Positions 8,614-26,364 of a DNA stretch of 64,000 bases are shown one piece after another. The stretch covers positions 434,001-498,000 of the forward strand of contig CANLOU010000002.1 in NCBI GenBank assembly GCA_947492995.1, in the 5' to 3' direction. The DNA is from an uncultured Litoreibacter sp. GTDB lineage: Bacteria > Pseudomonadota > Alphaproteobacteria > Rhodobacterales > Rhodobacteraceae. The position numbers and the translations under genes were made by a program. Every line of letters begins with the position of its first letter. Position 1 is the stretch's first letter. The notes under the pieces were generated by a model. That model worked only from the letters and a program-made list of their open reading frames with translations. It made no database searches and was not told the DNA's origin.

Positions 8614-8696
8614 TCCCCGCCGCTTTCGCGCGGCTTGCCACTGGACGTCGCCGCGCCCATAGGCCATATCTATGCCAACGCATTCGGAGGCACCTG

Positions 8697-9080: not shown

Positions 9081-9103
9081 TTGCCGTAGCGGGGGCGAGG
9101 CAC

Positions 9104-10056: not shown

Positions 10057-10585
10057 AACGCGAAATTTCTATTGCGCCTAAAGAGCTTAGGTGGGGTGTG
10101 ATGAATTGCGTGTCGAACAATTGAAAGCCGCCCGCATTCAGCCGCGAGACCAGATAGGCCAGCGCAATTTTGGACGCGTCGCGGCGGCGGGAGAACATGC
10201 TTTCCCCAAAAAATGCGCCCCTGAGCGTCACCCCATAGACGCCGCCGACAAGTGCATCATTGTCCCAAACCTCGACGGAATGGGCGTGGCCTTCGCTGTG
10301 TAACCCCATGTAAATGCTAAAAATTTCGTCGTTGATCCAGGTCTCTTCGCGGTCGGCGCAGCCCTCGATGACACCCACAAAATCGGTGTCTATGCGGATG
10401 TCATAGGGGTCGCGCAAAATGGTTTTGCGCAAAGACCGAGAGATACGGAAACCATCTAACGGGATGACCCCGCGTTGTTCGGGGTCGACCCAGAAAATCT
10501 GGTCATCATCGCGGGCCTCGGACATCGGGAAGATGCCACGTGCATAGGCGTTCAGAATCGTGGCTTTGGACAGAGTTTTGTACAT
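9959..10585 (-). CDS. aat: Leucyl/phenylalanyl-tRNA--protein transferase
   Basis: 208 residues with the L/F transferase signatures NAYARGIFPMSE, FWVDPEQRGVIPLDGFRISRSLRK, HAHSVEVWDNDALVGGVYGVTLRGAFFGESMFSRRRDASKIAL and FQLFDTQFITPHLSSLGA. The enzyme adds Leu or Phe from tRNA to proteins with N-terminal Arg or Lys, creating N-degrons for ClpS-ClpAP. The gene lies 70 bp downstream of accC on the same strand and probably shares its transcript. The 3' end overlaps the oppositely transcribed DUF2155 gene by 98 bp, an unusually long convergent overlap of two intact genes. Confidence 0.96.
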   Translation of the reverse strand: MYKTLSKATILNAYARGIFPMSEARDDDQIFWVDPEQRGVIPLDGFRISRSLRKTILRDPYDIRIDTDFVGVIEGCADREETWINDEIFSIYMGLHSEGHAHSVEVWDNDALVGGVYGVTLRGAFFGESMFSRRRDASKIALAYLVSRLNAGGFQLFDTQFITPHLSSLGAIEISRSSYHQALQAALSVEANFLRQPLTVSGHQVCSG

Positions 10586-10655
10586 TTTGGGGTAAAATTT
10601 CTTAGGCCGTAACCCAATTTGTACAAAATTCCGGCGTCAAAATCCTTACCAATTT

Positions 10656-11999
10656 TTAAGTATTGGCCTCCAGCCATTTTTCCAGCCAGTGGATGTTGTA
10701 GTCACCCGTCAACACCGCGTCTTCTTCGAGCAGCGCGTGGAACAGCGGCGTCGTGGTGTGGATGCCATCGACGATCAATTCGCCCAACGCACGTTTCAGC
10801 CGCGCCAAAGCCGCGGGGCGGTCGGGGGCGTGAACGATCAGCTTGCCGATCAGACTGTCGTAATAGGGCGGGATCGAGTAGCCGTCATAAAGTGCGCTGT
10901 CCATTCGGACACCCAGCCCGCCGGGAGCGTGGTATTGCGTGATCTTGCCAGGGCAGGGTGTAAATTCCGGCACCTTCTCGGCGTTGATGCGGACCTCGAT
11001 GGCGTGGCCGTTGATCTTGAGGTCATCTTGTTCAAATGACATGCCCAGACCGGCGGCGACATTGATCTGCTCGCGGACCAGATCGACCCCGAAGATGGCC
11101 TCAGTCACGGGGTGTTCCACCTGCAACCGCGTGTTCATTTCGATGAAATAAAACTCGCCGTCCTCATAAAGGAATTCGACGGTGCCGGCACCGGCATAGT
11201 CAATCGTGGCGACCGCGTCGGCGCAGACCTTGCCGATCTTGGCGCGGGTGGCTTCGTCAATGGCGGGGCCGGGGGCTTCTTCGAACACTTTCTGGTGGCG
11301 GCGCTGCAAGGAGCAGTCGCGTTCGCCCAGATGCACGGCGCGGCCGTTGCCATCGCCAAAGACCTGAATTTCGATGTGACGCGGGCGACCGAGATATTTC
11401 TCGATATAGACCTCGTCATTGCCGAAGTTGGATTTTCCCTCGGAGCGCGCGGTGCGGAAGGCGTTTTCCATCTCGTCGCGGGAATTGGCGAGCTTCATGC
11501 CTTTGCCGCCGCCGCCAGCCGTGGCCTTGATGATGACGGGGTAGCCGATGTCGTCGCCAACTTGATAGGCGGTTTCGAGATCAGGCACGCCGCCGTCGGA
11601 GCCCGGAACGCAAGGTACGCCCAGCTTTTTCATCGTGTCCTTGGCGGTGATCTTGTCGCCCATGACGCGGATATGTTCGGCTGTCGGGCCGATAAAGGTG
11701 ATGCCGTGGTCCTGCAGGGCTTGCACGAAATTCGCGTTTTCCGACAGGAAGCCGTAACCGGGATGGATGGCTTCCGCGCCGGTAATTTCGGCCGCCGAGA
11801 TGATGGCCGCAACATTGAGATAGCTTTGCGTGCCGGGAGCGGGGCCGATGCAGATGGCTTCATCGGCCATACGCACATGCATGGCGTCCGCATCTGCGGT
11901 GGAATGCACAGCGACAGAGCCAATGCCCATTTCACGCGCGGCGCGGATGACGCGAAGGGCGATCTCGCCCCGGTTGGCGATCAGGATTTTGTTGAACAT
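10656..11999 (-). CDS. accC: Acetyl-CoA carboxylase, biotin carboxylase subunit
   Basis: 447 residues. It shows the biotin carboxylase layout: N-terminal [27 protein letters not shown]-grasp glycine-rich loop [14 protein letters not shown] near residue 160, [16 protein letters not shown], and the catalytic block [26 protein letters not shown]. AccC carboxylates the biotin on AccB using ATP and bicarbonate, the first step of malonyl-CoA synthesis. The gene starts 5 bp after the accB stop, so accB-accC form an operon, with aat downstream. Confidence 0.98.
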
Positions 12000-12004
12000 G
12001 GGCG

Positions 12005-12496
12005 CTATTCGATAATCATCAGAGGTGCGCCGAATTCAACCGGCGAGCCGTCTTCGACCAAGATGCGTTTGACTGTGCCGGATTTTGGCGCGGGGATTTG
12101 GTTCATCGTCTTCATCGCTTCGATGATGATGATGGTTTGGCCTTCGGTGACCTTGTCCCCTTGGGTGACGAAAGCGGGGGTGCCGGGTTCGGCCTGCAGA
12201 TAGCAGGTGCCGACCATGGGCGAGGTGACGGCGCCCGGATGCTGAGCGGGGTCATCGGTGCTTGCTGCTGGCGCGGCTGTTGCCGCCGCCGGTGCTGCTG
12301 CCGCCGGGGCAGGGGCCGCTGCGGCGGGCGCGGCCACCATTTGCACGGCCTGTCCGCCTTTGGAGACCCGTACATCAAGGCTGTCATCAGACGCGTATTC
12401 GCGTTTGACGCGCAATTCGGTCAGCTCGTTTTCATTCAAAAGCTCTGCAAGTGCCTTAATGAAGGCGACGTCGCTGTCATGTGGCGTCTTGGCCAT
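12005..12496 (-). CDS. accB: Acetyl-CoA carboxylase biotin carboxyl carrier protein
   Basis: 163 residues. The N-terminal region ([24 protein letters not shown]) is typical of BCCP. A roughly 35-residue Ala/Pro-rich swinging linker follows at about residues 52-85, then the C-terminal biotinyl domain with the EAMKTMN motif; Lys129 is the predicted biotinylation site. It carries carboxybiotin from AccC to the carboxyltransferase (AccA/AccD, not in this window). First gene of the accBC operon; a GGAGTATTC sequence lies just upstream of its ATG. Confidence 0.97.
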
Positions 12497-12607
12497 CAGG
12501 GAATACTCCTACCCATCCGTGTCCGGCTAGCCGGATCTGTCATTGCAGACGGTTATAGGCCATGCTTGACCTAGAGAAAAGCGAGCATTCATCTATGGGC
12601 CGCGCGC

Positions 12608-12919
12608 CTATTCCGGCTGATTTGGCGGCGGCTCTGCGGTGTTGGCGTTGTAGATGCTTTGCGGCTCCGCATCGGGGATCGTGTCAGGGACCGCGACTTT
12701 GAGGTCGACCTTCTTGGGATCAGAGAGCACCGCGCGGTCTGGCCCGTTGACCCTTGTGACATCGGCCTGCGGGAGCACCGCGTTGGGCGTCATTTGATCG
12801 GTTGGCCGGGTCTGGTCGGGCGCAGGCGTCGCAGGGGCCAGCGCGTCCGGCTGCGCCACGGGGCGGGGCGTGTGGCTGGCGACGTTCTGACCCGCGCCGA
12901 TGATTTGGTTTGTCAGCAT
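12608..12919 (-). CDS. Hypothetical proline-rich protein
   Basis: A 103-residue protein without a recognisable domain, rich in Pro, Ala, Asp and Gln and probably disordered (for example PVAQPDALAPATPAPDQTRPTDQ). No signal peptide or membrane helix is evident. ATG at 12919 was chosen because AAGGAAG lies about ten bases upstream; an in-frame ATG at 12952 gives an unlikely extra 11 residues. It is 111 bp upstream of accB on the same strand, so it may be a separate small unit. Function unknown; codon use resembles the neighbours. Confidence 0.55.
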   Translation of the reverse strand: MLTNQIIGAGQNVASHTPRPVAQPDALAPATPAPDQTRPTDQMTPNAVLPQADVTRVNGPDRAVLSDPKKVDLKVAVPDTIPDAEPQSIYNANTAEPPPNQPE

Positions 12920-12988
12920 TTTCAGCTTCCTTTCGACTGGAAGCCCCCACAAGCCTCATCATAGCGGACAGGGATATTGCTGAAACGT

Positions 12989-13019
12989 AAACGGCGGCAC
13001 CTGATGTACCGCCGTTTTT
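12989..13019 (-). terminator. Hairpin terminator after acsA (possibly bidirectional)
   Basis: AAACGGCGG (12989-12997) and CCGCCGTTT form a 9-bp stem with an 11-nt loop in the 119-bp gap between acsA and the hypothetical gene downstream. On the acsA strand the stem is followed by few T residues; on the plus strand it is followed by TTTTTA. Confidence 0.55.
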
Positions 13020-13038
13020 AGGTGATTTGTTCGCGTGC

Positions 13039-14988
13039 CTAGCCGCGGTTCATCCGGTTTTCGATCAGCTCATCGACCACGGACGGATCCGCCAGCGTCG
13101 ACGTGTCGCCCAGCGCCCCGAAATCATCCTCGGCGATTTTGCGCAGGATGCGGCGCATGATCTTGCCGGAGCGGGTTTTCGGCAGGCCGGGGGCCCATTG
13201 GATCAGGTCCGGCTTGGCGATGGGGCCGATGTCTTTGCGGACCCAGACCTCAAGTTCTTTGCGCAGCTCCTCGGACGGCTCCTCGCCGCCCATCAAAGTG
13301 ACATAGGCGTAGATGCCCTGACCCTTGATGTCATGCGGGTAGCCGACCACCGCGGATTCGGAGACCTTGGGGTGCGCCACCAGCGAGGATTCGACCTCCG
13401 CCGTGCCCATCCGGTGGCCGGACACGTTGATGACGTCATCGACCCGGCCCGTGATCCAGTAATAGCCATCCGCGTCGCGTTTGCAGCCGTCGCCGGTGAA
13501 GTAATAGCCTTTGTAATCGTCGAAATAGGTTTTCATGAAGCGGTCATGGTCGCCAAAAACCGTGCGCATCTGGGCGGGCCAGCTGGCCTTGATACACAGC
13601 ACGCCCTCGGCGGCGGTGTCGTGGATTTCCTCGCCGGTTGTGGGCTCAAGGATCACCGGCTCGATGCCGAAGAACGGCGTGGTGGCGGAGCCGGGCTTGG
13701 TGGTGGTGGCGCCGGGCAGCGGCGTCAGCAAATGGCCGCCGGTTTCCGTTTGCCACCACGTGTCGACGATGGGGCAATTGCCCTTGCCGACGACGTCATT
13801 GTACCAGTTCCACGCCTCGGGGTTGATCGGCTCGCCCACGGTGCCCAAGAGCTTGAGGGAGGAGAGGTCGTAGGGCTCGACGAATTGGTTGCCCTGACCC
13901 ATCAGCGCGCGGATGGCGGTGGGGGCTGTATAGAATTGGTTCACCTTGTGCTTTTCGCAGACGGCCCAGAACCTGCCCGCATCGGGGTAGGTGGGCACGC
14001 CCTCGAACATCACGGTGGTGGCTCCGTTGGCCAGGGGCCCGTAGACGATATAGCTGTGGCCGGTGACCCAGCCGACATCCGCCGTGCACCAGAAGATGTC
14101 GCCGTCATGGTAGTCGAACGTGTATTGATGCGTCATCGACGCGTAGACGATGTAGCCGCCGGTGGTGTGGACCACGCCTTTGGGCATGCCGGTGGAGCCG
14201 GACGTGTAGAGGATGAACAGCGGGTCCTCGGCGGCCATTTCCTCAGGCGGGCAGTCGTTGGAGACGTTGGCCTCCATCTCGTGCAGCCAGTGGTCGCGGC
14301 CATCGGTCCAGGCGACGTCGCCGCCGGTGCGTTTGACGACCAGCATCTTGGCGTCGTGGTTCACGCCCTCGAACGCCTTGTCGCAATTGACCTTGAGCGG
14401 GGTGTTCTTGCCGCCGCGCGGGGCCTCGTCCGCGGTGATGACAACCTTGGCCTCGGACCCGTTGACCCGTGCGGCCAGCGCGTCGGCGGAGAAGCCCGCG
14501 AAAACGATGGAATGGATGGCCCCGATGCGCGCGCAGGCCAGCATCGCGTAGGCGGCCTGCGGGATCATCGGCATGTAGATCACGACGCGGTCGCCTTTGG
14601 CGACGCCCATCTCCTTGAGCACATTGGCCATCTTGCACACATGCGCGTGCAGCTGCTGGTAGGTGATGTGCTGGGCCTCGTCGCCGGGGCTGTCGGGCTC
14701 CCAGATGATGGCGGTCTGGGTGCCGCGCTCCGCCAGATGGCGGTCAATGCAGTTGGCGGCGACGTTGAGCGTGCCGTCCTCGTACCAGTTGATGTCGACC
14801 TTGCCGTGCTCAAACGTGGCGTTGCGCACTTTGGTGTAAGGCGTCATCCAGTCGATGCGCTTGCCATGCGCGCCCCAGAACGCGTCCGGGTCGGCGATGC
14901 TGTCGGCATACATCTTGTCATAGGTTGCCTTGTCGGCATGCGCGCGCGCCGCAAATTCCGTTGAAGGTGCGTAGGTTTTATCGGTCAT
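13039..14988 (-). CDS. acsA: Acetyl-CoA synthetase (acetate--CoA ligase)
   Basis: 649 residues, the usual Acs length. It contains the AMP-binding P-loop [22 protein letters not shown], the WWQTETGG motif (here [18 protein letters not shown]), [31 protein letters not shown], and the C-terminal [15 protein letters not shown] with Lys609 at the position of the acetylation-controlled catalytic lysine of enterobacterial Acs. It activates acetate to acetyl-CoA via acetyl-AMP. Start ATG 14988 follows AGGGGGC; a longer reading would include a palindromic intergenic repeat and is rejected. It lies 70 bp downstream of a five-gene ABC transporter on the same strand and divergent from a ScfR/RamB-like regulator, suggesting a joint role in short-chain acid use. 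Confidence 0.97.
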
Positions 14989-15018
14989 TGGGTGCCCCCT
15001 AAGGTCTGTTCTTGAAAT

Positions 15019-15053
15019 GTCGGGGTCCCCGCTGGCGCGGGGATGACATGCGT
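15019..15053. repeat. Intergenic palindromic repeat between the LivF-like gene and acsA
   Basis: The 70-bp gap contains CGGGGTCCCCGCTGGCGCGG followed by GGATGACATGC. CCCCGC and GCGGGG form a short stem. Translated on the minus strand this gives [12 protein letters not shown], a signature I recognise from short dispersed palindromic elements in alphaproteobacterial genomes. Only one copy is seen in this window, so the repeat status rests on that recognition. Confidence 0.45.
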
Positions 15054-15058
15054 GGTGC

Positions 15059-15814
15059 TTAGATCGCCAGATATTCGGCGCGCAGCTTCTCGTCGTCCAG
15101 CACCTCTTGGGCGGAGCCGTCATAGACGACGGAGCCGGTGTCGAGGATCACCGCGCGGTCGGCCAGCTTGAGGGCGGCGACCGCGTTTTGTTCGACGATG
15201 ATCGTGGTGATGCCCTGGTCGCGGATGATGCCAAGGGTCTTGGCAATTTCCTGAACAATGACGGGGGCGAGGCCCTCATAGGGTTCATCGAGCAGCAGCA
15301 CTTTGATATCGCGGCACAACGCGCGCGCGATGGCGAGCATCTGCTGCTCGCCGCCGGACAGGGTGGAGCCGTCTTGCTTGCGGCGTTCCTTAAGGCGGGG
15401 GAACAGCTCGTAGACACGTTCCAGCGACCAGCCGATGGGCGGCGCAATTTGGGCCAGTTTAAGGTTCTCTTCGACGGTCAGGCCCTGGATGATGCGGCGG
15501 TCTTCGGGCACCAGCGCGATGCCGGATTGGGCGGCCTGCCAGGATTTCATTTTGTGCAGCGGTTCGTGGTCCAGCCAGATCTCGCCCTTGTTGACCTGCG
15601 GGTCATCCATGCGGGCAATGGCGCGCAAGGTGGAGGTTTTGCCCGCGCCGTTGCGGCCCAGAAGGGCGAGGATCTCGCCCTCATGCACGTTGAAGCTGAT
15701 GCCTTGAACGATGAAGCTTTCGCCGTAATAGGCCTCCACATCCCACAGGCTGAGAAAGGCGGGGTGGGTCGCCGCGTTATTCGCGTTTTTGTTGAAGTCG
15801 GGTTTGACGGTCAT
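15059..15814 (-). CDS. ABC transporter ATP-binding protein, LivF-like
   Basis: 251 residues. It has Walker [15 protein letters not shown], signature [15 protein letters not shown], Walker [14 protein letters not shown] and H-loop IIVEQN. With the LivG-like protein it should power a branched-chain-amino-acid-type (HAAT) importer. Start at 15814 follows AAGGAAAG. It is the last transporter gene before acsA. Between it and the upstream ATPase gene lie two tandem perfect palindromes. The 20-residue N-terminal extension before the ABC core is a little longer than usual. Substrate is not given by the sequence; the acsA and ScfR context suggests a short-chain acid or a derivative. Confidence 0.93.
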
Positions 15815-15831
15815 TGTCTTTCCTTCAGCAG

Positions 15832-15886
15832 CAAGAATTTTCGATCGAAAATTCTTGTGTCCAATTCTTTTCGATCGAAAAGAATT
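15832..15886. repeat. Tandem perfect palindromes centred on TCGATCGA
   Basis: Two perfect palindromes fill the 77-bp gap between the two transporter ATPase genes: 15832-15857 (26 bp, CAAGAATTTTCGA then its complement) and 15863-15886 (24 bp, AATTCTTTTCGA then its complement). Their centres are exactly 30 bp apart, close to three helical turns. On RNA each would fold into a stem of 12-13 bp. They may be dispersed roseobacterial repeats, processing or stabilising stems, or a protein-binding site. Confidence 0.85.
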
Positions 15887-15891
15887 ACGGG

Positions 15892-16650
15892 TTAAACCTG
15901 CGCTTCGCCGAGATACGCTTCGCGTACCTTCGGGTGGCCCTTGATATTGTCTGGCGTGTCTTCCACCAGCGGGGTGCCTTGCGCCAACACGGTGATGCGT
16001 TCCGCCATGGAGAAGACCACATGCATGTCATGCTCGATGATCGCCATGGTGATGTCGCGCTTCTCCTTGATCTCCTTGAGCAGGTCGATCGTGTTGTTGG
16101 TATCCGCGCGCGCCATGCCGGCCGTTGGCTCATCCAGCAGCAAGAGCTTTGGCTCTTGCACCAGACACATTGCCATCTCCAGGCGGCGCTTGTCGCCGCG
16201 TGACAGCGACGCCGCATGCATGTCGCGTTTTTCGAGCATGTTGACGTCGTCGAGGATGGCTTCGGCCTGATCCTTGATGTCGCCCTGGCCGCGCACGGCG
16301 GCGAAAGCGTTCATTTTGAACGACCCGTCGCGATGGGCGAAGCAGGGGATCATGATGTTTTCCATCACCGTCAGATCCGCGAAAATTTCCGGCGTCTGGA
16401 ACACCCGGGAGACGCCCATCTGGTTGATCTCATGCGGCTTGCGCCCCAGCAGCGACTGCCCCTGAAACGTGACCGACCCGGTGTCCGGGATCAGCTTGCC
16501 CACAAGGCAGTTCAGCAGCGTGGACTTGCCCGCCCCGTTCGGCCCGATGATCGCGTGGACCGTATTTTCCGCGACCGACAGGTTCACATCGCCCAGCGCC
16601 TGCAACCCGCCGAAGCGCTTGCCGACATTTTTGATCTCTAGGATTGCCAT
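15892..16650 (-). CDS. ABC transporter ATP-binding protein, LivG-like
   Basis: 252 residues. Walker A is IIGPNGAGKSTLLNCLVG and Walker B KLLLLDEPTAGM, with H-loop AIIEHDMHVVF. The ABC signature is LSRGDKRRLEMAM rather than LSGGQ, a variation seen in LivG/UrtD-like ATPases. Start at 16650 with AAGGAG upstream. It lies 12 bp after the LivM-like permease gene and is part of the same operon. Role: ATP hydrolysis for the importer. Confidence 0.93.
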   Translation of the reverse strand: MAILEIKNVGKRFGGLQALGDVNLSVAENTVHAIIGPNGAGKSTLLNCLVGKLIPDTGSVTFQGQSLLGRKPHEINQMGVSRVFQTPEIFADLTVMENIMIPCFAHRDGSFKMNAFAAVRGQGDIKDQAEAILDDVNMLEKRDMHAASLSRGDKRRLEMAMCLVQEPKLLLLDEPTAGMARADTNNTIDLLKEIKEKRDITMAIIEHDMHVVFSMAERITVLAQGTPLVEDTPDNIKGHPKVREAYLGEAQV

Positions 16651-16662
16651 GTCTATTGCTCC

Positions 16663-17862
16663 TTATTCAGCGGGTGTTTTCGCGGCGTCGGACGGGGTGT
16701 CCTGCGCCTTCTTGCGGGAGAACAGCCCCTTGATGCGCTGCCCGCCCTCGACCAGCCCGCCGGGCAGGAAGATGATGACCAGCATGAACACCACGCCCAG
16801 CGTCAGGTGCCAACCTTTGCCCGTGAACATGTCGAAAACCGTTACAAAGGCCTTTTCCATGCCGTCCGGCATGAAGGCAAACCACTGCTCGAGAACGGCC
16901 TTGTTGATCTTGGAGACAATGTTTTCCATGTACTTGATCGCGCCTGCGCCAAGCACAGGACCGATCATCGTGCCAGCACCGCCAAGGATGGTCATGATCA
17001 CCACCTCGCCAGAGGCCGTCCAAAACATCCGTTCCGCACCTGCCAGTGGGTCCATTGCAACCATCAGACCGCCGGCCAGACCGGCATACATGCCAGAGAT
17101 CACGAAGGCCGCCAGCGTGTAGGGGCGCGAGTTCAGCCCGGTGTAGTTCAGCCGGGTCTGGTTGGTTTTGATCGCCCGCAGCATCAGCCCGAAGGGCGAC
17201 TGGAAGATGCGGATCGACGCGTAGAAGGCCAGCACCATGATGATGGCGCAGAAATAGTAGCCCGTGTTGAAGCTGAAGGACCAGCCTCCCACGGCCAGCT
17301 CATAGGTGCTGCGCATTTCCAGCCCGAAGAAGCTGGGGACCGGGATGTTGCCGTCCACGGCAGCCGCGCCAAGGATGCGCGGATCGCTGAGCGACAGGGT
17401 CAGGCCGGTTTCGCCGCCCGTGATGGGCGTCAACACGGAGGCCGCCAGCGCGAACATCATCTGCGCGAAGGCCAGCGTCAGGATGGAGAAGTAGATGCCC
17501 GACCGGCGCAGGCAGATATAGCCGATCACCACCGACAACAGCCCCGCCACCAGCACGGAGGCCGCGATGGCCGGGATGACGTTCATGCCCAGAAGCTTGA
17601 ACATCCAGACCCCTGCGTAGGAGCCCACCCCCAGAAAGGCCGCGTGGCCGAAGCTGAGATAGCCGGTGAGGCCGAACAGGATGTTAAACCCGATGGCGAA
17701 GATGCCGAAGATGACGAAGCGTTGCATCAGGTCCGGGTAGCCCGCGTTGAACTGCGCCATGGCGCTGTCTGCGGGAAACGGGTTCATCAAGAAGGGCGCG
17801 AAGGCGACCAGAAAGATGACGAGGAAAAGAAGCCGTGTGTTCTTTGCGGTAAGGCCAAACAT
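16663..17862 (-). CDS. ABC transporter permease, LivM-like
   Basis: 399 residues with roughly nine to ten hydrophobic helices from about residue 8 onwards. The family block [24 protein letters not shown] near residue 65 and [25 protein letters not shown] near residue 285 mark the LivM/UrtC permease family. A roughly 25-residue charged tail ([27 protein letters not shown]) ends the protein. It is 3 bp downstream of the LivH-like permease gene, so translation is probably coupled. Substrate not determined. Confidence 0.92.
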
Positions 17863-17865
17863 GGA

Positions 17866-18897
17866 TCAGTCCTCCATCACGCCGCGCTTGCCCAGAAGGC
17901 CGCGAGGACGGGTTAGTAGAATTACGATTGCCGCCAGATAGATGACGACCTGGTTGATGCCGGGCAGGAACTCGATGACTTCGCGCATGGAGGCGAAGCT
18001 TTGCAGGATGCCAAGGACGAAGCCTGCGAGCACCGCTCCGGGCAGCGACCCCATGCCGCCCACAACCACCACCACGAAGGAGATCACGAGGAAGTCCATG
18101 CCCATGTGGTAATTGGGCGAGTTGATGGGCGTGTACATGACGCCTGCAAGGCCCGCCACGACGGCGGCCAGACCGAACATCATGGTGAAGCGCTTGTCGA
18201 TGTCGATGCCCAACAGCCCCACGGTTTCGCGGTCGGCCATGCCGGCGCGGACCACCATGCCGAAAGTGGTGAATTGCAGGAAGGCGAAGACGCCGGTGAT
18301 GATGAGTGCTGCAAAGCCAAAATAGACCAGACGCCAGTAGGGGTAGATGATGCGGTTGGCCTCAAAGCCCAAGAGCTGGCCGAAGTCGAAGCTGCCTTTG
18401 AAGGCGTCAGGTGCCGGGGCCGGGATCGGGTTGGCGCCGAAGAAATACTTGATGATCTCTTGCAGCACGATGGCCAGCCCGAAGGTCACCAGAATTTGGT
18501 CGGCATGGGGGCGTTTGTAAAAATGCTTGATCAGGCCGCGCTCCATGACGATGCCGATGACCAGCATGACTGGGATCGCGAAGATGATGGCAAGGGGCAC
18601 CGACCAGTCGATGATCGAGGCCGAGGCGGCCTCGCCAAACCAGTCCTGCATGTAGGGGACCTGCACCTTGAGGGGGTTGCCCAGAAAGTCCTTTTGGCTT
18701 TCGTCGATGATTGTGTAGCTGGACGACAGGATACGTTGCAGCACGACCGTGCAAAAGCTGCCGATCATGAACAGCGCGCCATGCGCGAAGTTGACCACGC
18801 CGAGCGTGCCGAAGATCAGCGTCAGGCCAAGGGCGATCAACGCATAAGCGGAGCCCCCGTCTAGTCCACTGAGAAGTTGAAGAACAATTGCTTCCAT
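17866..18897 (-). CDS. ABC transporter permease, LivH-like
   Basis: 343 residues, longer than the usual 290-310 because of an inserted segment of about 45 residues (near 52-90, SQKDFLGNPLKVQVPYMQDWF and following) before the second half of the membrane core. Family motifs: LIALGLTLIFGTLGVVNFAHGALFMIGSF near residue 20, and FVVVVVGGMGSLPGAVLAGFVLG and LTRPRGLLGKRG near the C-terminus. It pairs with the LivM-like protein to form the membrane channel. The gene lies 130 bp after the substrate-binding protein gene; that gap holds a stem-loop. Confidence 0.92.
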   Translation of the reverse strand: MEAIVLQLLSGLDGGSAYALIALGLTLIFGTLGVVNFAHGALFMIGSFCTVVLQRILSSSYTIIDESQKDFLGNPLKVQVPYMQDWFGEAASASIIDWSVPLAIIFAIPVMLVIGIVMERGLIKHFYKRPHADQILVTFGLAIVLQEIIKYFFGANPIPAPAPDAFKGSFDFGQLLGFEANRIIYPYWRLVYFGFAALIITGVFAFLQFTTFGMVVRAGMADRETVGLLGIDIDKRFTMMFGLAAVVAGLAGVMYTPINSPNYHMGMDFLVISFVVVVVGGMGSLPGAVLAGFVLGILQSFASMREVIEFLPGINQVVIYLAAIVILLTRPRGLLGKRGVMED

Positions 18898-18981
18898 CTT
18901 GCCGACCCCAAAGATGTGACGCGTCTGTCCCCCTGAAGGGGCTCAAGTGCCGCGTGGTTCAGATGAAGTTAAAGTGAGTGT

Positions 18982-19011
18982 GTGCGGCCCCGCCCGAAAG
19001 GGGGGCCGCAC
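18982..19011 (-). other. Stable stem-loop after the substrate-binding protein gene
   Basis: GTGCGGCCCC (18982-18991) and GGGGCCGCAC (19002-19011) form a perfect 10-bp GC-rich stem with a 10-nt loop just after the binding-protein stop. No T tract follows on the minus strand, so it looks like an mRNA-protecting or partial-attenuation stem. That arrangement commonly keeps binding-protein mRNA more abundant than permease mRNA. Confidence 0.65.
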
Positions 19012-19027
19012 GCCGTGAGTGGTGCGT

Positions 19028-20377
19028 TTACGCGCCCGGGTTACATGTACCCAGCTCGCCGCCAAAGATGGAGGCATCGTAAGTGACCTGCGCCGCAGGC
19101 GTGACTTCCACGATTTCGAGAAGGTCGAACTCGGAGGTTGGGTTCTCTTTACCCTTCACAACCAGCACGTCTTTGAAGCACTGGTGGTCTTCGGCGCGGT
19201 ACAGCGTTGGGCCGTTGCCCATGCCGTCGAACTCGAAGCCTTCCAGAGCTTCGCCAATGCCACATGGGTTGAACGTGCCAGCACGCTCAGCAGCATCCGC
19301 ATAAAGCAGCGTTTGCACGTAGCATGTGTGCGCCGCCTGCGACGGTGGGAAGCCGTATTTTTCGCCGAACGACTTGACGAATGCTTTGGAGCCTTCGTCT
19401 GTCAGCGACCAGTGCCAGTTGGTGGAACCGAAGATGCCCTTAACGTTTTCGCCTGCACCTTTCGCCATCAGGCGGGAGTACAGAGGAACAACGATCTGGA
19501 AGTCCTGGCCGTTGGCTTGCGCTTCACGCAGACCGAACTGAACCGCTGATGTCAGCGAGTTCACCATGTTGCCGCCGTAGTGGTTCAGAACCAGAACGTC
19601 AGCACCGGACTGCAGCACGGGGGCCACGTAGTCTTTGAAGTCGGTCTGTGCCAGCGGTGTCTTAACAGCCGCAACAGTTTCCCAACCCATGGCCTCGGTG
19701 GAGGTCCGAACCGCTTCTTCTGTGGTGTAACCCCAGTTGTAGTCGGCGGTCAGGTGGTAGGCTTTACGGTCTGTGCCGTAGTTGGCGCCCAAGATCGGCG
19801 CCAGCGCCGCACCAGACATGTAGGAGTTAAAGAAGTGACGGAAGCCATTGGCTTTCTTATCTTTACCCGTTGTGTCGTTGGAGTGGGTCAGACCCGCCAT
19901 GAAGATGATGCCAGCTTCTTGGCAAAGCGCCTGCACAGCCACAGCCACACCCGACGACGAGCCGCCGGTAATCATGATTGCGCCGTCTTTTTCGATCATC
20001 GACTTCGCGGATGCACGAGCAGCATCCGGCTTGGTCTGCGTATCGCCTGTGACGTACTCGACTTTTTTGCCGAGGATGCCGTTGCCCTTCAGCTCTTTCG
20101 ACGAGAAGGTGTTCATCATGCCGCCGTCGCCGCCACCGTTCAGGTGCTCAACAGCAAGCTCATATGCACGCAGCTCGTCTGCACCTTCGTCAGCGTAGGG
20201 GCCGGACTGTGGCACGTTGAAGCCCAAAGTGACGGTGTCACCTTGTGGCGCGTTCAGGTAGCCAGCGTGGCCATCGGCCCAGGACGGGCTAAAGAAACGT
20301 GGTGCAGCAAGAGCAGCGCCGCCAGCAACGGCGGATGTCTTCAGCAGCCCACGGCGAGTGAAGTTAGATTTGGACAT
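19028..20377 (-). CDS. ABC transporter periplasmic substrate-binding protein (HAAT/urea-amide type)
   Basis: 449 residues. The N-terminus (SNFTRRGLLKTSAVAGGAALAAP) is a twin-arginine export signal. The mature part is a type I periplasmic binding fold: VTLGFNVPQSGPYADEGADELRAYELAVEHLNG, then ITGGSSSGVAVAVQALCQEAGIIFMAG, then YNWGYTTEEAVR. It is the largest and first gene of the five-gene transporter operon. The fold serves branched-chain amino acids, urea, short-chain amides and related ligands; residues alone do not settle the ligand. Divergent regulator and downstream acsA favour short-chain acids or their amides (inference). TAT export implies folding before export. A region with direct repeats separates it from the regulator gene. 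Confidence 0.92.
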   Translation of the reverse strand: MSKSNFTRRGLLKTSAVAGGAALAAPRFFSPSWADGHAGYLNAPQGDTVTLGFNVPQSGPYADEGADELRAYELAVEHLNGGGDGGMMNTFSSKELKGNGILGKKVEYVTGDTQTKPDAARASAKSMIEKDGAIMITGGSSSGVAVAVQALCQEAGIIFMAGLTHSNDTTGKDKKANGFRHFFNSYMSGAALAPILGANYGTDRKAYHLTADYNWGYTTEEAVRTSTEAMGWETVAAVKTPLAQTDFKDYVAPVLQSGADVLVLNHYGGNMVNSLTSAVQFGLREAQANGQDFQIVVPLYSRLMAKGAGENVKGIFGSTNWHWSLTDEGSKAFVKSFGEKYGFPPSQAAHTCYVQTLLYADAAERAGTFNPCGIGEALEGFEFDGMGNGPTLYRAEDHQCFKDVLVVKGKENPTSEFDLLEIVEVTPAAQVTYDASIFGGELGTCNPGA

Positions 20378-20507
20378 TAAAATCCTCCCTAGGTGGTTTT
20401 GGGGGCGCTCCTCCTCAGGGCGCCTCCGCCTCGGTTTTCCGAGATAGGCGCAATATCGCGGCTTTTTGTCAAAACACGCAATAAGACGCTGGGTTGTATT
20501 AATTTTT

Positions 20508-20551
20508 CTGTAAAGTTATGGACTTTGCGCGCGCAGAAACTGTAAAGTTAT
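20508..20551. promoter_or_regulatory. Putative operator: direct repeats in the divergent acs-transporter/ScfR region
   Basis: Two identical CTGTAAAGTTAT sequences at 20508-20519 and 20540-20551, 32 bp apart (about three turns), flank GGACTTTGCGCGCGC. The reverse complement ATAACTTTACAG and the middle ACTTTGCG resemble the ACTTTGCAAA-type core known for RamB-type acetate regulators. They lie 47-90 bp upstream of the regulator start and 130-175 bp upstream of the binding-protein start, where an operator for both would be expected. Confidence 0.5.
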
Positions 20552-20597
20552 TTTCTTAGCGGCGCGGCGAACCCGCAAATTAACGTGAGGAATCAAC

Positions 20598-21893
20598 GTG
20601 CCACGCACCGTTTTGACCGGCAGCCGAATCCGCGACCGCAGGCTTGCCATGGGCCTCAAACAGGCCGATTTGGCGGCGCAAGCGGGGATTTCGGCCAGCT
20701 ATCTGAACCTGATCGAGCACAACCGGCGCAGAATCGGTGGCAAACTGCTGGTGCAGATCGCAGCCAGCCTGCAGACCGACGCCACCACCCTGAGCCAAGG
20801 CGCCGACACCGCCACATTAGAGGCGCTGGAGGCCGTGGCGGAGCAGGGCGCAGACACCCACGTGGAGGCCGACCGCGCCGAAGAGTTTGTTGCCCGCTTC
20901 CCCGGCTGGGCCGCCAAGCTGGTCGAACAAGGCGACCGGATCGAGGGCTTGGAGCAGACATTGCGGGGCCTGAACGACCGGCTGACCCATGACCCGGTGC
21001 TGTCTGAAAAGATGCATGACGTGCTGGGCGCGGTGGCCGCGATCCGGTCGACATCCTCCATTCTGGTTGAAACGCCCAATATCGACGCCGACTGGCGGGC
21101 GCGGTTTCACGCCAATATCGACACGGAAAGCCGCAGGCTGGCGGACACCTCTGCCGCGATGGCCGCGCATTTTGACCGGCTGACCCGCGACGACACGGGC
21201 TTCACCACCCCGCTGGAAGCGGTTGCGGCCTTCTTCGAGCTGCGCGGATTTCATATCGACGAGATCGAGCAGCACGGGGAGGGCGCGATTGACGGGCTTC
21301 TGGACGCGGCGGCTGAGTTCAAAAGCCGCTCGGCGCGCCGGATGGCGCGGATTGTGCTGTCGCTATACGCCGAGGACGCCAAGGCGTTGCCGCTGGAGCC
21401 GTTTACGCGCTCTGCCAGCGCGCTGGGATACGACCCCGCCGCCCTGGCGGCGCGCCACGGCGTCGACATGCACACCGTGTTCCGCCGCATGGCCACGCTG
21501 CCCCGCCACCCCGACCGGCCCGAAATCGGGCTTGTGACCTGCGACGCGGCGGGGGCGATTTTGCTGCGCAAACCGCCATCCGGCTTCTCGCTGCCCCGGT
21601 TCGGGGCCGCGTGCCCGCTTTGGCCGCTTTTTGCGGCGCTGCGCAGCCCCGGCATGCCGATGCGGCAGCTGATCCAAAGCAGCGAGGGGTCCTATTTTAC
21701 GGCGTTCTCCATTGCCTCCCCCGTTGGGCAGTCCAGCTTTGATGCGGTGCCCGTCATCCGCGCGGCCATGTTGCTGGTCGCAGCCGACGCGCCAGCTGAG
21801 GAGCCGGTTTTGGTGGGGTCCACCTGCCGCGTTTGCCCCCGCCGCAACTGTGCTGCGCGGCGGGAGCCGTCTATCTTGTCGCAAAAGGGCTAA
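20598..21893 (+). CDS. ScfR/RamB-like short-chain fatty acyl transcriptional regulator (XRE HTH)
   Basis: 431 residues. An N-terminal XRE helix-turn-helix (GSRIRDRRLAMGLKQADLAAQAGISASYLNLIEHNRRRI, residues 8-46) is followed by a helical middle and the C-terminal domain of short-chain fatty acyl-CoA regulators, ending in the cysteine motif VGSTCRVCPRRNCAARREPSI. Characterised relatives are RamB (acetate metabolism in actinobacteria) and alphaproteobacterial regulators of propionyl/acetyl-CoA pathways. The metal-binding HExxH sometimes seen in the middle domain is not evident. Divergent from the transporter-acsA operon and probably the first gene of an operon with a response regulator and a histidine kinase, so it likely controls short-chain acid uptake and activation. 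Confidence 0.88.
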   Translation: MPRTVLTGSRIRDRRLAMGLKQADLAAQAGISASYLNLIEHNRRRIGGKLLVQIAASLQTDATTLSQGADTATLEALEAVAEQGADTHVEADRAEEFVARFPGWAAKLVEQGDRIEGLEQTLRGLNDRLTHDPVLSEKMHDVLGAVAAIRSTSSILVETPNIDADWRARFHANIDTESRRLADTSAAMAAHFDRLTRDDTGFTTPLEAVAAFFELRGFHIDEIEQHGEGAIDGLLDAAAEFKSRSARRMARIVLSLYAEDAKALPLEPFTRSASALGYDPAALAARHGVDMHTVFRRMATLPRHPDRPEIGLVTCDAAGAILLRKPPSGFSLPRFGAACPLWPLFAALRSPGMPMRQLIQSSEGSYFTAFSIASPVGQSSFDAVPVIRAAMLLVAADAPAEEPVLVGSTCRVCPRRNCAARREPSILSQKG

Positions 21894-21989
21894 GGTTTTT
21901 GACAGCGCGGCGTTTCTGGGCCTTACTGCGGCCTGTGGATTGCCGGCCCCCGCGACGTCTGGGGGCCACTCTTGGGGAGGAGAGGCAAC

Positions 21990-22376
21990 ATGGGAAATTC
22001 AGTTCTTCTGATTGAGGACGAGCCCAACATCATTGAGGCGATCAGTTTCTTGCTAGAGCGCGACGGCTGGACCGTGCGGCTGCACACGGAGGGCGTGGGC
22101 GCTGTCGAAGCCGTCGCCGCCGCCAACCCCGATGTCGTTGTGCTGGATGTCATGCTGCCCGGCCGCAGCGGCTTCGACATATTGCGCGAACTGCGCCAAG
22201 GCGCGGCACCGGCCGACCTGCCGGTGCTGATGCTGACGGCGCGGGGCCAGACCAAGGACCGCGAACTGGCCGAAAGCTACGGCGTCAGCGGCTTCATGAC
22301 CAAACCCTTCTCCAACGCCGAGATGCTGCAGACCGTGCGCGACCTTGCCGAGGGGCGACCCCCCAGCGGGTCATGA
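21990..22376 (+). CDS. Receiver-only response regulator
   Basis: 128 residues consisting of a single CheY-like receiver domain: IEDEPN acid pocket near residues 8-13, phosphoacceptor Asp53 in VVVLDVMLPGRSG, and a conserved Lys in GFMTKPFSN. There is no DNA-binding domain, so it must act through a partner or by phosphotransfer. ATG at 21990 follows GGGGAGGAGAGG. It is linked to the downstream symporter-histidine kinase by two closely spaced genes (ATGA overlap, then 3 bp), so that kinase is the probable phosphodonor. Known CrbR partners of CrbS kinases carry an HTH output, making this variant unusual. Confidence 0.9.
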   Translation: MGNSVLLIEDEPNIIEAISFLLERDGWTVRLHTEGVGAVEAVAAANPDVVVLDVMLPGRSGFDILRELRQGAAPADLPVLMLTARGQTKDRELAESYGVSGFMTKPFSNAEMLQTVRDLAEGRPPSGS

Positions 22377-22636
22377 GCGAGGCGCCCGAGACCAAACCAA
22401 CGCCGCGCCCCTCAAAATTCCTTGAGCAGAGCGTTTATCGCCGTCGCCGCTTGATTGACGCGATCAAGCTGCTGCCGACGCTGGGGGCCGGCTTGTTCCT
22501 GACGCCCGCCCTGATCCTTGGGACGGGGGCCGGGTCAACGGCCACGCGGCTGGTTTATTTCTTTTTCTGCTGGATGGTCCTGATCCTGCTATGTGCGACG
22601 TTGACGCGGGCGCTGTCGCGCGGGGAAGAGGGCTGA
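22373..22636 (+). CDS. Small two-helix membrane protein
   Basis: 87 residues with a hydrophilic N-terminal 40 and two hydrophobic helices (about residues 35-55, LLPTLGAGLFLTPALILGTG, and 62-80, VYFFFCWMVLILLCATLTRAL). It overlaps the response regulator stop by four bases and ends 3 bp before the histidine kinase start, so it belongs to this signalling operon. No known domain recognised. A role as accessory subunit of the symporter-kinase is plausible, since many solute:sodium symporters have a small two-helix partner, but this is inference. Confidence 0.78.
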   Translation: MSEAPETKPTPRPSKFLEQSVYRRRRLIDAIKLLPTLGAGLFLTPALILGTGAGSTATRLVYFFFCWMVLILLCATLTRALSRGEEG

Positions 22637-22639
22637 CCC

Positions 22640-25312
22640 GTGGTGACCTTCAACATCCTTGTCACCGTCGCTTTGGTCTACGTGGCCGCCCTGTTTGCGG
22701 TGGCCTTTTACGCCGATAGAAGCGCCAAGAAGGGCCGCACCAAATGGCTGCGCTCGCCGCTGACCTACACGCTGTCGCTGAGCGTCTATTGTACGGCCTG
22801 GACCTTTTACGGCGCGGTGGGCAACGCCGCGCGGTCGGGGCTGGAATATCTGACGATCTACCTTGGCCCGACGCTGGTGTTTCTGGGCTTCTGGGTGCTG
22901 CTGCGCAAGCTGGTGCGCATTGGCCGGGCCGAACGGATCACATCCATCGCCGACCTCATTTCGTCGCGCTACGGCAAATCCACGGCCTTGGCCGTGCTGG
23001 TCACCTGCCTCGCGGTCACCGGCACGACGCCCTATATTGCGCTGCAACTTCAGTCGGTTACGCTGAGCTTTGCGGCCTTTGTTCCCTCGGAGGCGGGCGG
23101 AAATCTGGCGGACCTCAATTCAACGGCGCTTTGGGTCGCGGCCGGGCTGGCGGTGTTTACGATCCTTTTTGGCACCCGCAATCTGGACGCCAACGAGCGC
23201 CATCACGGCGTGGTCACCGCCATCGCGGTGGAGGCCATCGTTAAGCTGGTGGCGCTGCTGGCGGTGGGCATCTTCGTGGTTTGGGGCGTCTCGGGCGGGT
23301 TGTCGGACACGCTGCAGATCATCGAGGCCAGCCCCGTGGCCGAATGGCGACCCGACGCGGGCCGCTGGGTGGGCATGACCTTCCTGTCGGCCGCCGCCAT
23401 CATCTGCCTGCCGCGCATGTTTCAAGTGATGGTGGTCGAAAACGAGGACGAGCGGCACCTGACGGTCGCCAGCTGGGCCTTCCCGCTATACCTGATGCTG
23501 ATGAGCCTGTTCGTGCTGCCCATCGCCGTTGTGGGGCTTGCGGTGCTGCCCGAGGGGGCGAACCCCGACCTGTTCGTGCTGACGCTGCCCTTGGCGCTGG
23601 ATCAGGAATTACTGGCGATGCTGGCCTTTCTGGGCGGCTTTTCATCGGCCACCTCGATGGTGATCGTGGCCGCAATTGCGCTGAGCACCATGGTCTCGAA
23701 CCACATCGTGCTGCCGCTGTGGCTGTCGATGCAGGGCCCCAAAGCCACCGTGTCGGGCGATGTGCGCAACGTCATGATATTGTCGCGGCGGATTTCCATC
23801 GGTGCGGTGCTGGCATTGGGCTACGCCTATTTCCGCGTCACCGGCGGGACGGCGGCGTTGTCGTCCATCGGGCTGGTCAGCTTTGCCGGGGTCGCGCAGA
23901 TTGTGCCAGCGCTGCTTGGCGGCATCTACTGGCGCGGGGCCACGCGGCGGGGCGCCTTGGCGGGGCTGATCGTGGGCTTTGTGATCTGGGGCTACACCCT
24001 GTTTGTGCCCGCCATTGGCCTGTTGCCCGACAGTCTGATGCAAAACGGGCTTTTTGCGATGTCGTGGCTGCGCCCGCAGGCGCTGTTTGGCCTTGTTGGG
24101 CTGGACCCGCTGGTCCATTCGATCTTTTGGTCCATGGCGTTGAATTCTGTGGCTTTCCTTGCGGTTTCGCTGGTGACTTTTCCCAGCCCCATCGAGCGGC
24201 TGCAGGGCGCGGCTTTCGTCAACGTGTTCTCGCGCGGTGAAAGCGGGGCGGGCTATGTGGGCGGCGTTGCGGAGACCGAGGACCTGCTGGTTATGGCGCA
24301 GCGCCTGTTGGGGGCAAGAGAGGCGCAGACCCTGTTCCAGCAATCGGCCAAGGATCAGGGTAAGCTGGGCTATCTGCCTGATCCGACGCCGGAATTCGTC
24401 TCGACCCTTGAGCGCGAACTGGCGGGCTCTGTTGGGGCTGCGACCGCGCATGCCATGGTGCGCCAGATTGACGGCAATGCTGCCGTGTCGGTGCAGGACC
24501 TTTTGGCCGTGGCCGACGAATCGGCGCAGATGCTGGAATATTCCAGCCAGCTGGAGGACAAATCCCGCGAGCTGGAACAAACAGCGCGCCAATTGCGCGA
24601 CGCCAATGACAAGCTGACAGCGCTGTCGGTCCAAAAGGACGCCTTTCTGAGCCAGGTCAGCCACGAGCTGCGCACCCCGATGACGTCGATCCGCTCTTTC
24701 TCGGAATTTCTGATGGAAGGCGGGATGAAAGCCCCTGACCGCAAGCGCTATTCCAAGATCATTCATGACGAAAGCATCCGCCTGACGCGGCTTTTGGACG
24801 ACCTGCTGGACCTCAGCTTTTTGGAAAGCGGGCAGGCGGCGATGAATGACCAAACGGCGTCTTTGCACGATGTGCTGGACCGCGCGGTGTCCTCGGCGGG
24901 CGCTTCAAAAGGAGCGATGACAGTGCGCCGAAACCCGGCGGACGAGCAGATTGAGCTGCGCACCGACACCGACCGGCTGAGCCAAGTCTTCATCAACCTG
25001 ATCTCGAACGCGCAGAAATACTGCGACGCGCAGGCCCCGACCCTGGACATTTCGGTGTCCGAAAAGCAGGGCCAGGTCGACATTGATTTTGTCGATAACG
25101 GATCGGGCATCCCGCAAAGCCAGCAATCCATTATTTTCGAGAAATTTGCGCGGCTTAGCGACCATTCCTCAGCCGGGAGCGCGGGGCTGGGGCTGGCCAT
25201 TTGCCGCGAAGTGATGGCGCGGCTTGGCGGCACCGTATCCTATCTGCCGGGTCAGGGCGGCGCCGCATTTCGCGTCAGCCTGCCGCGCCGCCGCGTGGCG
25301 GAGGCAGCCTAA
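22640..25312 (+). CDS. CrbS-like hybrid: sodium:solute symporter domain fused to sensor histidine kinase
   Basis: 890 residues. Residues 1-490 form a solute:sodium symporter (SSF) module with about 13 helices (for example YTLSLSVYCTAWTFYGAVGNA, TSIADLISSRYGKS, FLGGFSSATSMVIVAAIALSTMVSNH). A linker and coiled coil near 620-665 lead into a histidine kinase: H-box SQVSHELRTPMTSIRSF with His675, N-box NLISNAQKYCD, G1 DNGSGIP, and G2 AGLGLAICREV. This architecture matches CrbS, which governs acetate utilisation (acs) in gammaproteobacteria. The start is GTG at 22640 or 22643. Its location beside a ScfR/RamB regulator and close to acsA supports short-chain acid sensing, perhaps coupled to transport through the SSF module. 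Confidence 0.92.
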   Translation: MVTFNILVTVALVYVAALFAVAFYADRSAKKGRTKWLRSPLTYTLSLSVYCTAWTFYGAVGNAARSGLEYLTIYLGPTLVFLGFWVLLRKLVRIGRAERITSIADLISSRYGKSTALAVLVTCLAVTGTTPYIALQLQSVTLSFAAFVPSEAGGNLADLNSTALWVAAGLAVFTILFGTRNLDANERHHGVVTAIAVEAIVKLVALLAVGIFVVWGVSGGLSDTLQIIEASPVAEWRPDAGRWVGMTFLSAAAIICLPRMFQVMVVENEDERHLTVASWAFPLYLMLMSLFVLPIAVVGLAVLPEGANPDLFVLTLPLALDQELLAMLAFLGGFSSATSMVIVAAIALSTMVSNHIVLPLWLSMQGPKATVSGDVRNVMILSRRISIGAVLALGYAYFRVTGGTAALSSIGLVSFAGVAQIVPALLGGIYWRGATRRGALAGLIVGFVIWGYTLFVPAIGLLPDSLMQNGLFAMSWLRPQALFGLVGLDPLVHSIFWSMALNSVAFLAVSLVTFPSPIERLQGAAFVNVFSRGESGAGYVGGVAETEDLLVMAQRLLGAREAQTLFQQSAKDQGKLGYLPDPTPEFVSTLERELAGSVGAATAHAMVRQIDGNAAVSVQDLLAVADESAQMLEYSSQLEDKSRELEQTARQLRDANDKLTALSVQKDAFLSQVSHELRTPMTSIRSFSEFLMEGGMKAPDRKRYSKIIHDESIRLTRLLDDLLDLSFLESGQAAMNDQTASLHDVLDRAVSSAGASKGAMTVRRNPADEQIELRTDTDRLSQVFINLISNAQKYCDAQAPTLDISVSEKQGQVDIDFVDNGSGIPQSQQSIIFEKFARLSDHSSAGSAGLGLAICREVMARLGGTVSYLPGQGGAAFRVSLPRRRVAEAA

Positions 25313-25368: not shown

Positions 25369-26364
25369 TTGGCCTTGAGCAGCACCGGCGATATTCTCCG
25401 CAAGAAAATGCGACCGCGCCCGCCCGTGGTCGGCCCGTGTCTGGCGTGGTGGCAGCGCGACGCGGACCGGGTGCTGCGCAACATGTGCAAGACCAGCTTT
25501 GCCCTGGACGTAGACCCGACCGGCTTTGACGGCCGGCAGGCGCTGGCCCCCGCAGCCCTTGACGAGATGCCGCAAATCGCGCTGCCGTTCCTGCTGGATG
25601 CGGCGGGCGGCAAATCCGCCCTGTTTGTGCTGGACGGCCCGCTGATTGACGGGCTGATCGAACAGCAGCTGTTGGGGCGCATTTTGCCGATCAAACGGCT
25701 GGACCGCCCGGTGACGTCAATCGACGCAGGGCTGAGCGAAGGGTTCGTGGAGGCCGCGCTTGCGGCCATTGGCGCGCAGGCCCCCGGCCCATTGGCGGGG
25801 TTGAGCGCCAAATCGGCCCAGCAAGACCGCGCGGCCCTGCGACTGGCGCTGGGGGAAGGGCTGTACGACATCCTGTCGGTCAGCCTTGATATGGGGCCGG
25901 GCGTCAAGACAGGCGGGTTCGAGCTGTGGATCCCATCCCCCCCCGACACACCGCCCAAATCAGCAAAACGGCGCGTGAACCCCGACATGGTGGCGATTTT
26001 GCAGGACTGCGAAATCGAGTTGGAGGCGCGGATGGAGGGCTGCGTTGCGACCGCGAAACAGCTGATGTCGCTGAAGGTCGGGTCCGTTTTGGCCATGCCG
26101 AAAGCCGAGATCAGCAGGGTGGAGCTGTTTGACCCCAGCGGCAATTTGTTTGCGAAAGGCCGCTTGGGGCAGCTCAACGGGATGCGGGCGGTGCGATTGG
26201 GCAAGCTGGCCTATAGCCGCCCCGAGCCCCCGGCAGTCGAGGCTGCGCCAGCTGCGGCATTGCCCGCCGCACAGGTGCAGGAGCCGGACCCGGTGGCGGA
26301 TGTGGCGGCAAGCCCGGAGGGCGCAGAGGGGACCACGACGCAGGGCGACGCCGGGGCGGACTAG
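25369..26364 (+). CDS. FliM/FliN-like flagellar motor switch protein with SPOA domain
   Basis: 331 residues. The C-terminal part (about residues 205-285: MVAILQDCEIELEARMEG, TAKQLMSLKVGSVLAMPKAEISRVELFDPSGNLFAKGRLGQLNGMRAVRLGKL) is an SPOA/FliN-type domain; the preceding region, including IKRLDRPVTSIDAGLSEGFVEAAL, resembles the FliM middle domain. An Ala/Pro-rich tail ends the protein. No N-terminal CheY-binding EIDALL motif is seen. Flagellar C-ring proteins normally sit in fli operons; this one stands alone after a sensor kinase. The start is uncertain: TTG at 25369 retains an ILRKK segment typical of FliM N-termini, ATG at 25408 is the alternative. Confidence 0.72.
   Translation: MALSSTGDILRKKMRPRPPVVGPCLAWWQRDADRVLRNMCKTSFALDVDPTGFDGRQALAPAALDEMPQIALPFLLDAAGGKSALFVLDGPLIDGLIEQQLLGRILPIKRLDRPVTSIDAGLSEGFVEAALAAIGAQAPGPLAGLSAKSAQQDRAALRLALGEGLYDILSVSLDMGPGVKTGGFELWIPSPPDTPPKSAKRRVNPDMVAILQDCEIELEARMEGCVATAKQLMSLKVGSVLAMPKAEISRVELFDPSGNLFAKGRLGQLNGMRAVRLGKLAYSRPEPPAVEAAPAAALPAAQVQEPDPVADVAASPEGAEGTTTQGDAGAD

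Follow-up and report, generated by a model that had tools for sequence, protein, structure and literature searches.

The 64,000-nucleotide window, taken from contig CANLOU010000002.1 of an uncultured Litoreibacter sp., carries at positions 13039 to 25312 a locus in which a five-gene HAAT-type ABC transporter and the acetate--CoA ligase gene acsA are divergent from an operon for a ScfR-like regulator, a response regulator (RR), a small membrane protein and an SLC5-type sensor histidine kinase (Table 1). On the minus strand, the order is binding protein, two permeases, two ATPases and acsA, and on the plus strand regulator, RR, small protein and kinase. All ten genes were present and open, and their labels were backed by Pfam and NCBIfam, so the gene list of a first-pass annotation of this DNA was borne out by open reading frames (ORFs) and domains. 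The five transporter subunits were of the Liv/Urt type by Pfam. The start of acsA was placed at 14988 (MTDKTY...); a longer ORF, up to 15123, runs into livF. Between the divergent operons, a putative operator made of two TGTAAA boxes lies 131 bp from the start of the binding-protein gene and 51 bp from that of the regulator gene. This direct repeat in the divergent promoter is the new element, and the cluster is a variant of known acetate control. No account of the repeat or of the joint cluster was found in the open-licence literature, which omits most subscription journals.

Table 1. Coordinates of the locus in the window, and of one ScfR gene from genome G061 (coordinates in locus L199)
Feature	Position	Strand	Evidence
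acsA, AMP-forming acetate--CoA ligase	13039..14988	-	TIGR02188 1015.6 bits, cut-off 724.95
HAAT ATPase, livF-like	15059..15814	-	PF00005; UrtE and LivF models both below cut-off
HAAT ATPase, livG-like	15892..16650	-	PF00005 and PF12399
HAAT permease, livM-like	16663..17862	-	PF02653 (BPD_transp_2)
HAAT permease, livH-like	17866..18897	-	PF02653 (BPD_transp_2)
Periplasmic binding protein (Peripla_BP_6), Tat signal	19028..20377	-	PF13458 234.8 bits; TIGR01409 21.1 bits, cut-off 16.7
Putative operator, TGTAAA-N26-TGTAAA direct repeat	20509..20546	+	Boxes 32 bp apart
ScfR-like regulator, XRE helix-turn-helix (HTH) and ScfRs C-terminal domain	20598..21893	+	PF09856 59.6 bits (cut-off 24), PF01381 (HTH_3)
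Receiver-only RR, 128 aa	21990..22376	+	PF00072 only
Small 87-aa protein, membrane protein by eye	22373..22636	+	No family above cut-off (Pfam, NCBIfam)
SLC5-type sensor histidine kinase	22640..25312	+	HisKA, HATPase_c; residues 7-573 match PDB 10ed
RamB-like ScfR of G061	L199 3-1110		NF038139 405 bits, below cut-off 700

Gene neighbourhoods were compared in 120 genomes from the window's family, one per genus, with presence called at E 1e-100 for the binding protein, 1e-80 for the kinase and 1e-40 for the regulator (genomes and loci are labelled G and L). The kinase was found in 107 genomes, the regulator in 102 and the binding protein in 84. Each of the 84 genomes with the binding protein also had the kinase, and in 78 of them the two genes were divergently adjacent; in the remaining six, they were located on different contigs (five genomes) or about 38 kb apart (one genome). 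The gene arrangement is not due to chance, and the pairing extends far beyond this strain, as had been proposed. Only 46 of the 84 genomes had acsA at a distance of 6.5 kb or less from the binding protein, and acsA as a fixed partner was rejected on this count; the transporter directly upstream of acsA, also pointed out in the first-pass annotation, is what the window has and not a fixed arrangement. By these counts, the regulator operon is the constant part of the locus, HAAT is frequent and acsA is optional.

In a second set, the best 80 of 589 relatives from one collection scan, with titles mostly of Rhodobacteraceae, acsA followed HAAT in 24 loci, was missing from 31 that were long enough, and 25 loci were too short. 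The window binding protein was 81 to 90% identical to 23 relatives picked from these 80 loci, and a relative of the small protein sits between RR and kinase in many of them. From the 23 genomes with the kinase but not the binding protein, 20 HAAT-less loci (L084-L103) were compared by eye. Their divergent neighbour was often another ABC cluster with a dihydropyrimidinase-like gene adjoining it, in some cases accBC, and once acsA; aminotransferase and M20-like genes may also face the regulator operon there.

Within the HAAT-regulator intergenic regions (n = 72, window included), the box pair at 32 bp was exact in 46 and had at most one mismatch in 66, and a looser box pair occurred in 47 of the 72 promoters compared to 1.5% of Markov shuffles. 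The exact 32-bp repeat had 89 copies in the 120 genomes, and the backward pattern had 23. Most of these copies (57/89) were in the HAAT-regulator divergent promoter, and 16 were found before a distal acsA, 15 of them 128 to 205 bp upstream and the 16th before an acsA cut by the contig end; the others preceded the regulator in the HAAT-less genomes G042 and G080 (two copies) and a ScfR gene in G061 (one), or were located elsewhere (13). The strand of the repeat was opposite to acsA in 16 of 16 cases, matching its orientation to the binding-protein gene in the window, and the window operator is the only exact 32-bp copy in its own genome. A 31-bp form was present in 27 copies. Of these, 18 preceded acsA (15 full genes and three cut by contig ends), two preceded the regulator gene and one DUF485-actP in G051, and the remaining six were in other places. 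Among the members outside the family, L057 had no pair within one mismatch and L060 had one at 41 bp.

The upstream regions of 73 of the 74 distal acsA genes were examined, with G053 left out. When one mismatch and spacings of 31, 32, 41 or 42 bp were allowed, the repeat was found at 48 of the 63 distal acsA genes in kinase-bearing genomes and at none of the 10 in genomes without the kinase; counted per genome, it was present in 48 of the 60 that have both the kinase and a distal acsA. Boxes placed on the opposite strand matched at 1/63 genes, and reversed or permuted boxes at 0-3/63. Columns that were not part of the search agreed, with T at +10 in 88% of the 32-bp and 100% of the 31-bp acsA sites, and among the 32-bp acsA sites, 29% had ACA at exactly +13, compared to 8% or less at other offsets. 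Since the repeat is common to the HAAT promoter and to unlinked acsA genes, the importer and acsA would seem to belong to a single regulon. The earlier idea of uptake, sensing and activation in one unit is plausible through this link, with acsA as only an optional neighbour.

The window regulator belongs to the ScfR family, with PF01381 and PF09856 both above cut-off, and its Cys-rich tail aligns with those of two other ScfRs. The helix region reads ISASYLNLIEHNRR or ISPSYLNLIEHNRR in 69 of 90 relatives. Its score with the NCBIfam RamB model NF038139 was 131.1 bits (cut-off 700), by which a RamB orthologue was rejected and the initial RamB-type label reduced to that of a RamB relative. With regard to acyl-CoA binding, a trait of the ScfR family, PF06114 was found in two of three regulator relatives scanned and not in the window regulator. 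The XRE HTH and the ScfRs domain are common to it and to RamB, PccR and MccR of the same family, which are also alike in having two near-identical DNA boxes and acetate genes as targets, both putative here. Unlike these regulators, it is linked to a two-component system, and a Peptidase_M78-like middle domain was not detected by Pfam. The spacer of class 2 RamB is 18 bp (PMC10370305), whereas the window boxes are 32 bp apart from start to start. The gene of Pden_1785 from Paracoccus denitrificans, a ScfR-network protein, is clustered with a two-component system, as here (PMC10370305). That report names the protein once, without targets or study; by this description, it is probably the Paracoccus counterpart of the window regulator. 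No account of Pden_1785 targets was found in the open-licence literature. The window's own genome has a second, stronger ScfR (L081, G000:C2:35346; PF09856 227 bits) with a different helix.

All 13 kinase-less genomes lacked a regulator match at E 1e-40, as did five others, G008, G017, G023, G054 and G101. Four of these five, G008, G017, G023 and G054, belong to the 12 kinase-bearing genomes without the acsA repeat.

The kinase has HisKA and HATPase_c as its only Pfam domains besides lacking a receiver, and its match to PDB 10ed ("histidine kinase") had an E value of 1.7e-73. Its transporter part, for which SLC5 is the name used in the literature, gave no match to Pfam SSF (PF00474). An alignment of this N-terminal part over 614 aa gave 45% identity to a G023 kinase that is encoded in an acsA-DUF485-actP locus. 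That locus (L101, about 5080-14416) reads acsA-DUF485-actP-(...)-kinase-receiver, and its RR likewise has no DNA-binding domain. The kinase is also about 35% identical to those of L016 and L056, where an NtrC-type RR gene comes between the kinase gene and that for the same binding protein; the latter directly adjoins the RR gene in L016 and is separated from it by one gene in L056.

SLC5/STAC kinases control the use of acetate (CrbS), histidine or glucose (CbrA), and pyruvate (RpuS) (PMC9100948). The window system resembles CrbS/CrbR (MxtR/ErdR) in the SLC5-type kinase and in having acs and a monocarboxylate transporter gene as targets, which are putative here. CrbR is a LuxR-type activator whose site is the inverted repeat ACTU (PMC9100948, PMC5715377), in contrast to the receiver-only RR, the ScfR-like protein in the operon, the direct-repeat site, and the ABC transporter of the window. 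CrbS is called a hybrid kinase (PMC9100948), a description that sets the receiver-less window kinase apart from it. A CrbS/CrbR member was rejected on these grounds, as the RR has no LuxR-type DNA-binding domain and the kinase is not a hybrid. Of the CrbS-like kinase initially proposed, an SLC5-type histidine kinase stands that is a relative and at most a putative orthologue of CrbS, and that has no hybrid receiver. The initial union of two separate control routes found no support as worded either; because the RR, unlike CrbR, lacks a DNA-binding domain, the two are more likely one pathway. In Sinorhizobium fredii, the SLC5/STAC kinase system RpuS/RpuR likewise acts through an imperfect direct repeat to control a monocarboxylate transporter (PMC9100948). 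Its target is the symporter MctP, and the available description names no ScfR, unlike the window system (PMC9100948).

On balance, with modest confidence, we favour a regulated importer-plus-activation module for a short-chain monocarboxylate. Gene content, linkage, the shared repeat and co-occurrence are read directly from the DNA; from these we infer the binder of the repeat, the step that leads to it from the RR, the direction of control, and the ligand. Sensing of the acid, or of its flux, would fall to the SLC5-type kinase at the membrane, which would phosphorylate the receiver-only RR. The RR, without a DNA-binding domain, would hand this state to the ScfR-like regulator, probably through direct contact. 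The regulator would bind the TGTAAA pair, with its 32-bp spacing (31 or 41 bp in front of some acsA genes), and switch on the HAAT operon and acsA, wherever acsA sits. HAAT would then import acetate or a close monocarboxylate such as lactate or pyruvate, standing in for the ActP symporter of acs-actP-kinase loci.

Several observations weigh against this module. In 38 of the 84 genomes, no acsA gene lay as close as 6.5 kb to the binding protein, and 23 genomes had the kinase without the binding protein; from 20 such loci fetched, 19 had the regulator, and only five of these 19 regulator genes had a box pair in front. The repeat was missing in 12 of the 60 kinase-bearing genomes with a distal acsA. 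The spacings had been picked by a gap scan on the same acsA regions, and 32 bp with one mismatch alone gave 24/63 compared to 0/10 distal acsA genes. The operon-less genomes may just be remote relatives, as the counts take genomes regardless of kinship. The 31-bp form was overall no commoner than the backward control (27 vs 23), and therefore only its places speak for it. With one mismatch allowed, the pattern was rarer in the window's own genome than the backward control (3 vs 16). Two further one-mismatch sites there, one about 550 bp before a methylmalonyl-CoA mutase-like gene and the other between photosynthetic-looking genes (by eye), were not used as support. In front of actP, the repeat was present in one of three genomes examined, on the same strand as actP, unlike the acsA sites. 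In G054 and G101, the HAAT promoter has the repeat despite the lack of a regulator match at the threshold, and because of this repeat a diverged regulator is likely in both. As for the ligand, the model of the binding protein matches HAAT-fold proteins with many ligands, and lactic acid is the annotated substrate of a system with this order of genes (see below).

A short-chain monocarboxylate is the likely ligand of HAAT. In the window's own genome, no match to SSF (PF00474), SatP (PF01184) or LctP (PF02652) was found. ActP of the L101 type was present in four of the 120 genomes, none of which had the binding protein. Kinship among the genomes makes this exclusion (0/4; about 0.007 when calculated by hand) weak. 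Together, the own-genome result and the ActP distribution fit HAAT in the place of ActP, short of proof. The binding-protein model (pLDDT 69.6) had the general HAAT fold; its top chains 4maa, 3n0w and 3i09 have no ligand in their titles, and the neighbours outside Rhodobacteraceae gave a mixed picture. A ligand of the lactate or pyruvate type leads at a little under an even chance, acetate follows as a weaker candidate, and another ligand is somewhat less probable still.

The strongest rival to the favoured module, given a little under an even chance, is that HAAT imports lactate (or another 2-hydroxy or 2-oxo monocarboxylate), and that acsA shares the operator since both are wanted on small acids and not because AcsA acts on what HAAT imports. 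AcsA is not needed for lactate, which speaks against it. Lactic acid annotations of such transporters are said to be based on mutant fitness data from Phaeobacter inhibens. Transport of lactic acid is the annotated role of the five-gene ABC system SPO1017-1021 in Ruegeria pomeroyi (PMC9870897, PMC9723723), and its order of ATPase, ATPase, permease, permease and binding protein (PMC9870897) is the same as in the window. By this gene order it is a candidate counterpart of HAAT, but it has no star in the table of PMC9870897, where the star is taken to mark mutant-tested systems. Control of a pyruvate symporter by RpuS, another SLC5/STAC kinase (PMC9100948), also agrees with a lactate importer. 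In L045 (15224-20599), an FAD-oxidase/CCG protein and a DUF4147-MOFRL protein are encoded beside HAAT, with a 2-hydroxy-acid flavour that favours this rival.

The ScfR-like protein is, in our view, quite probably the reader of the TGTAAA repeat. Alternatively, the repeat could be bound by another factor, for example of the CRP/FNR type, with the ScfR-like regulator serving other genes. Imperfect palindromes are a shape bound by CRP/FNR-type factors, and the left half of the repeat, TGTAAA-N4-TTNACA, is also one. The mostly pair-less regulator promoters in HAAT-less loci point the same way, and the case for the ScfR-like protein as binder is drawn from sequence comparison. We nevertheless regard another factor as unlikely. 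The repeat tracks the operon at distal acsA genes, and published ScfR sites consist of two near-identical boxes (PMC10370305). Furthermore, in G061, where the kinase and the window-type regulator were not found, a RamB-like ScfR is divergent from an isocitrate-lyase-like gene (by eye), has TGTAAA boxes at 32 bp just upstream, and shares the helix ISASYLNLIEHNRR with the window regulator.

Slightly less likely again is a transporter of an amide, urea or amino acid with an indirect acetate link, which is suggested by the best NCBIfam matches of the subunits (urea and Liv models, all below cut-off), by AmiC and UrtA among the fold neighbours, and by other genes in the place of HAAT in HAAT-less genomes, but is opposed by the repeat common to HAAT and acsA and by the UrtABCDE equivalog models, which left all five subunits below cut-off with only 58 of 493 bits for the urea binding protein.

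Outside the family, plasmid NZ_CP025513.1 of Neorhizobium sp. SOG26 carries HAAT, regulator, RR and kinase together with a one-mismatch repeat. The identities to the window were 66% for the binding protein, 49% for the kinase, 47% for the RR, and 32-34% in two pieces for the regulator. No acsA match was found in the 25 kb examined, and the plasmid record has no annotated feature at the module. In L016 (89-5922) and L056 (4178-11317), titled Granulosicoccaceae and Chromatiales, the binding protein is 86-87% identical to that of the window, and genes for an SLC5-type kinase and an NtrC-type RR come before its gene; HAAT seems to have been transferred here into a setting like that of CbrAB.

Among marine consumers of algal organic acids, Rhodobacteraceae have an important place, and their uptake of acetate-class acids and the switching to them are poorly known. 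More tentatively than the favoured module itself, the locus may represent a three-protein acetate/monocarboxylate switch, with a ScfR-type DNA-binding protein directed by an SLC5 kinase through a receiver-only RR and with a HAAT for C2-C3 monocarboxylates in the role of ActP, as the standing acetate control of most Rhodobacteraceae that moves between families with its operator. If true, this switch would join two regulator classes so far known separately. The repeat offers a testable regulon for a widespread regulator (102/120 genomes), and the predicted high-affinity route in many genera would be an ABC system and not ActP (84 and 4 of the 120 genomes, respectively).

On the acsA strand, downstream of that gene, are genes that by eye resemble accB, accC and aat (window 9959-12496, minus strand), and accBC relatives are located downstream of HAAT in many loci. 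A Hint-domain-like protein (by eye) is encoded at 29927-30496 on the minus strand near tRNA-Leu (30672-30756). The kinase gene is followed by a gene for a FliMN_C (C-ring) domain protein (25369-26364, plus strand), a weak relative of which lies beside the kinase in 53 of the 80 loci.

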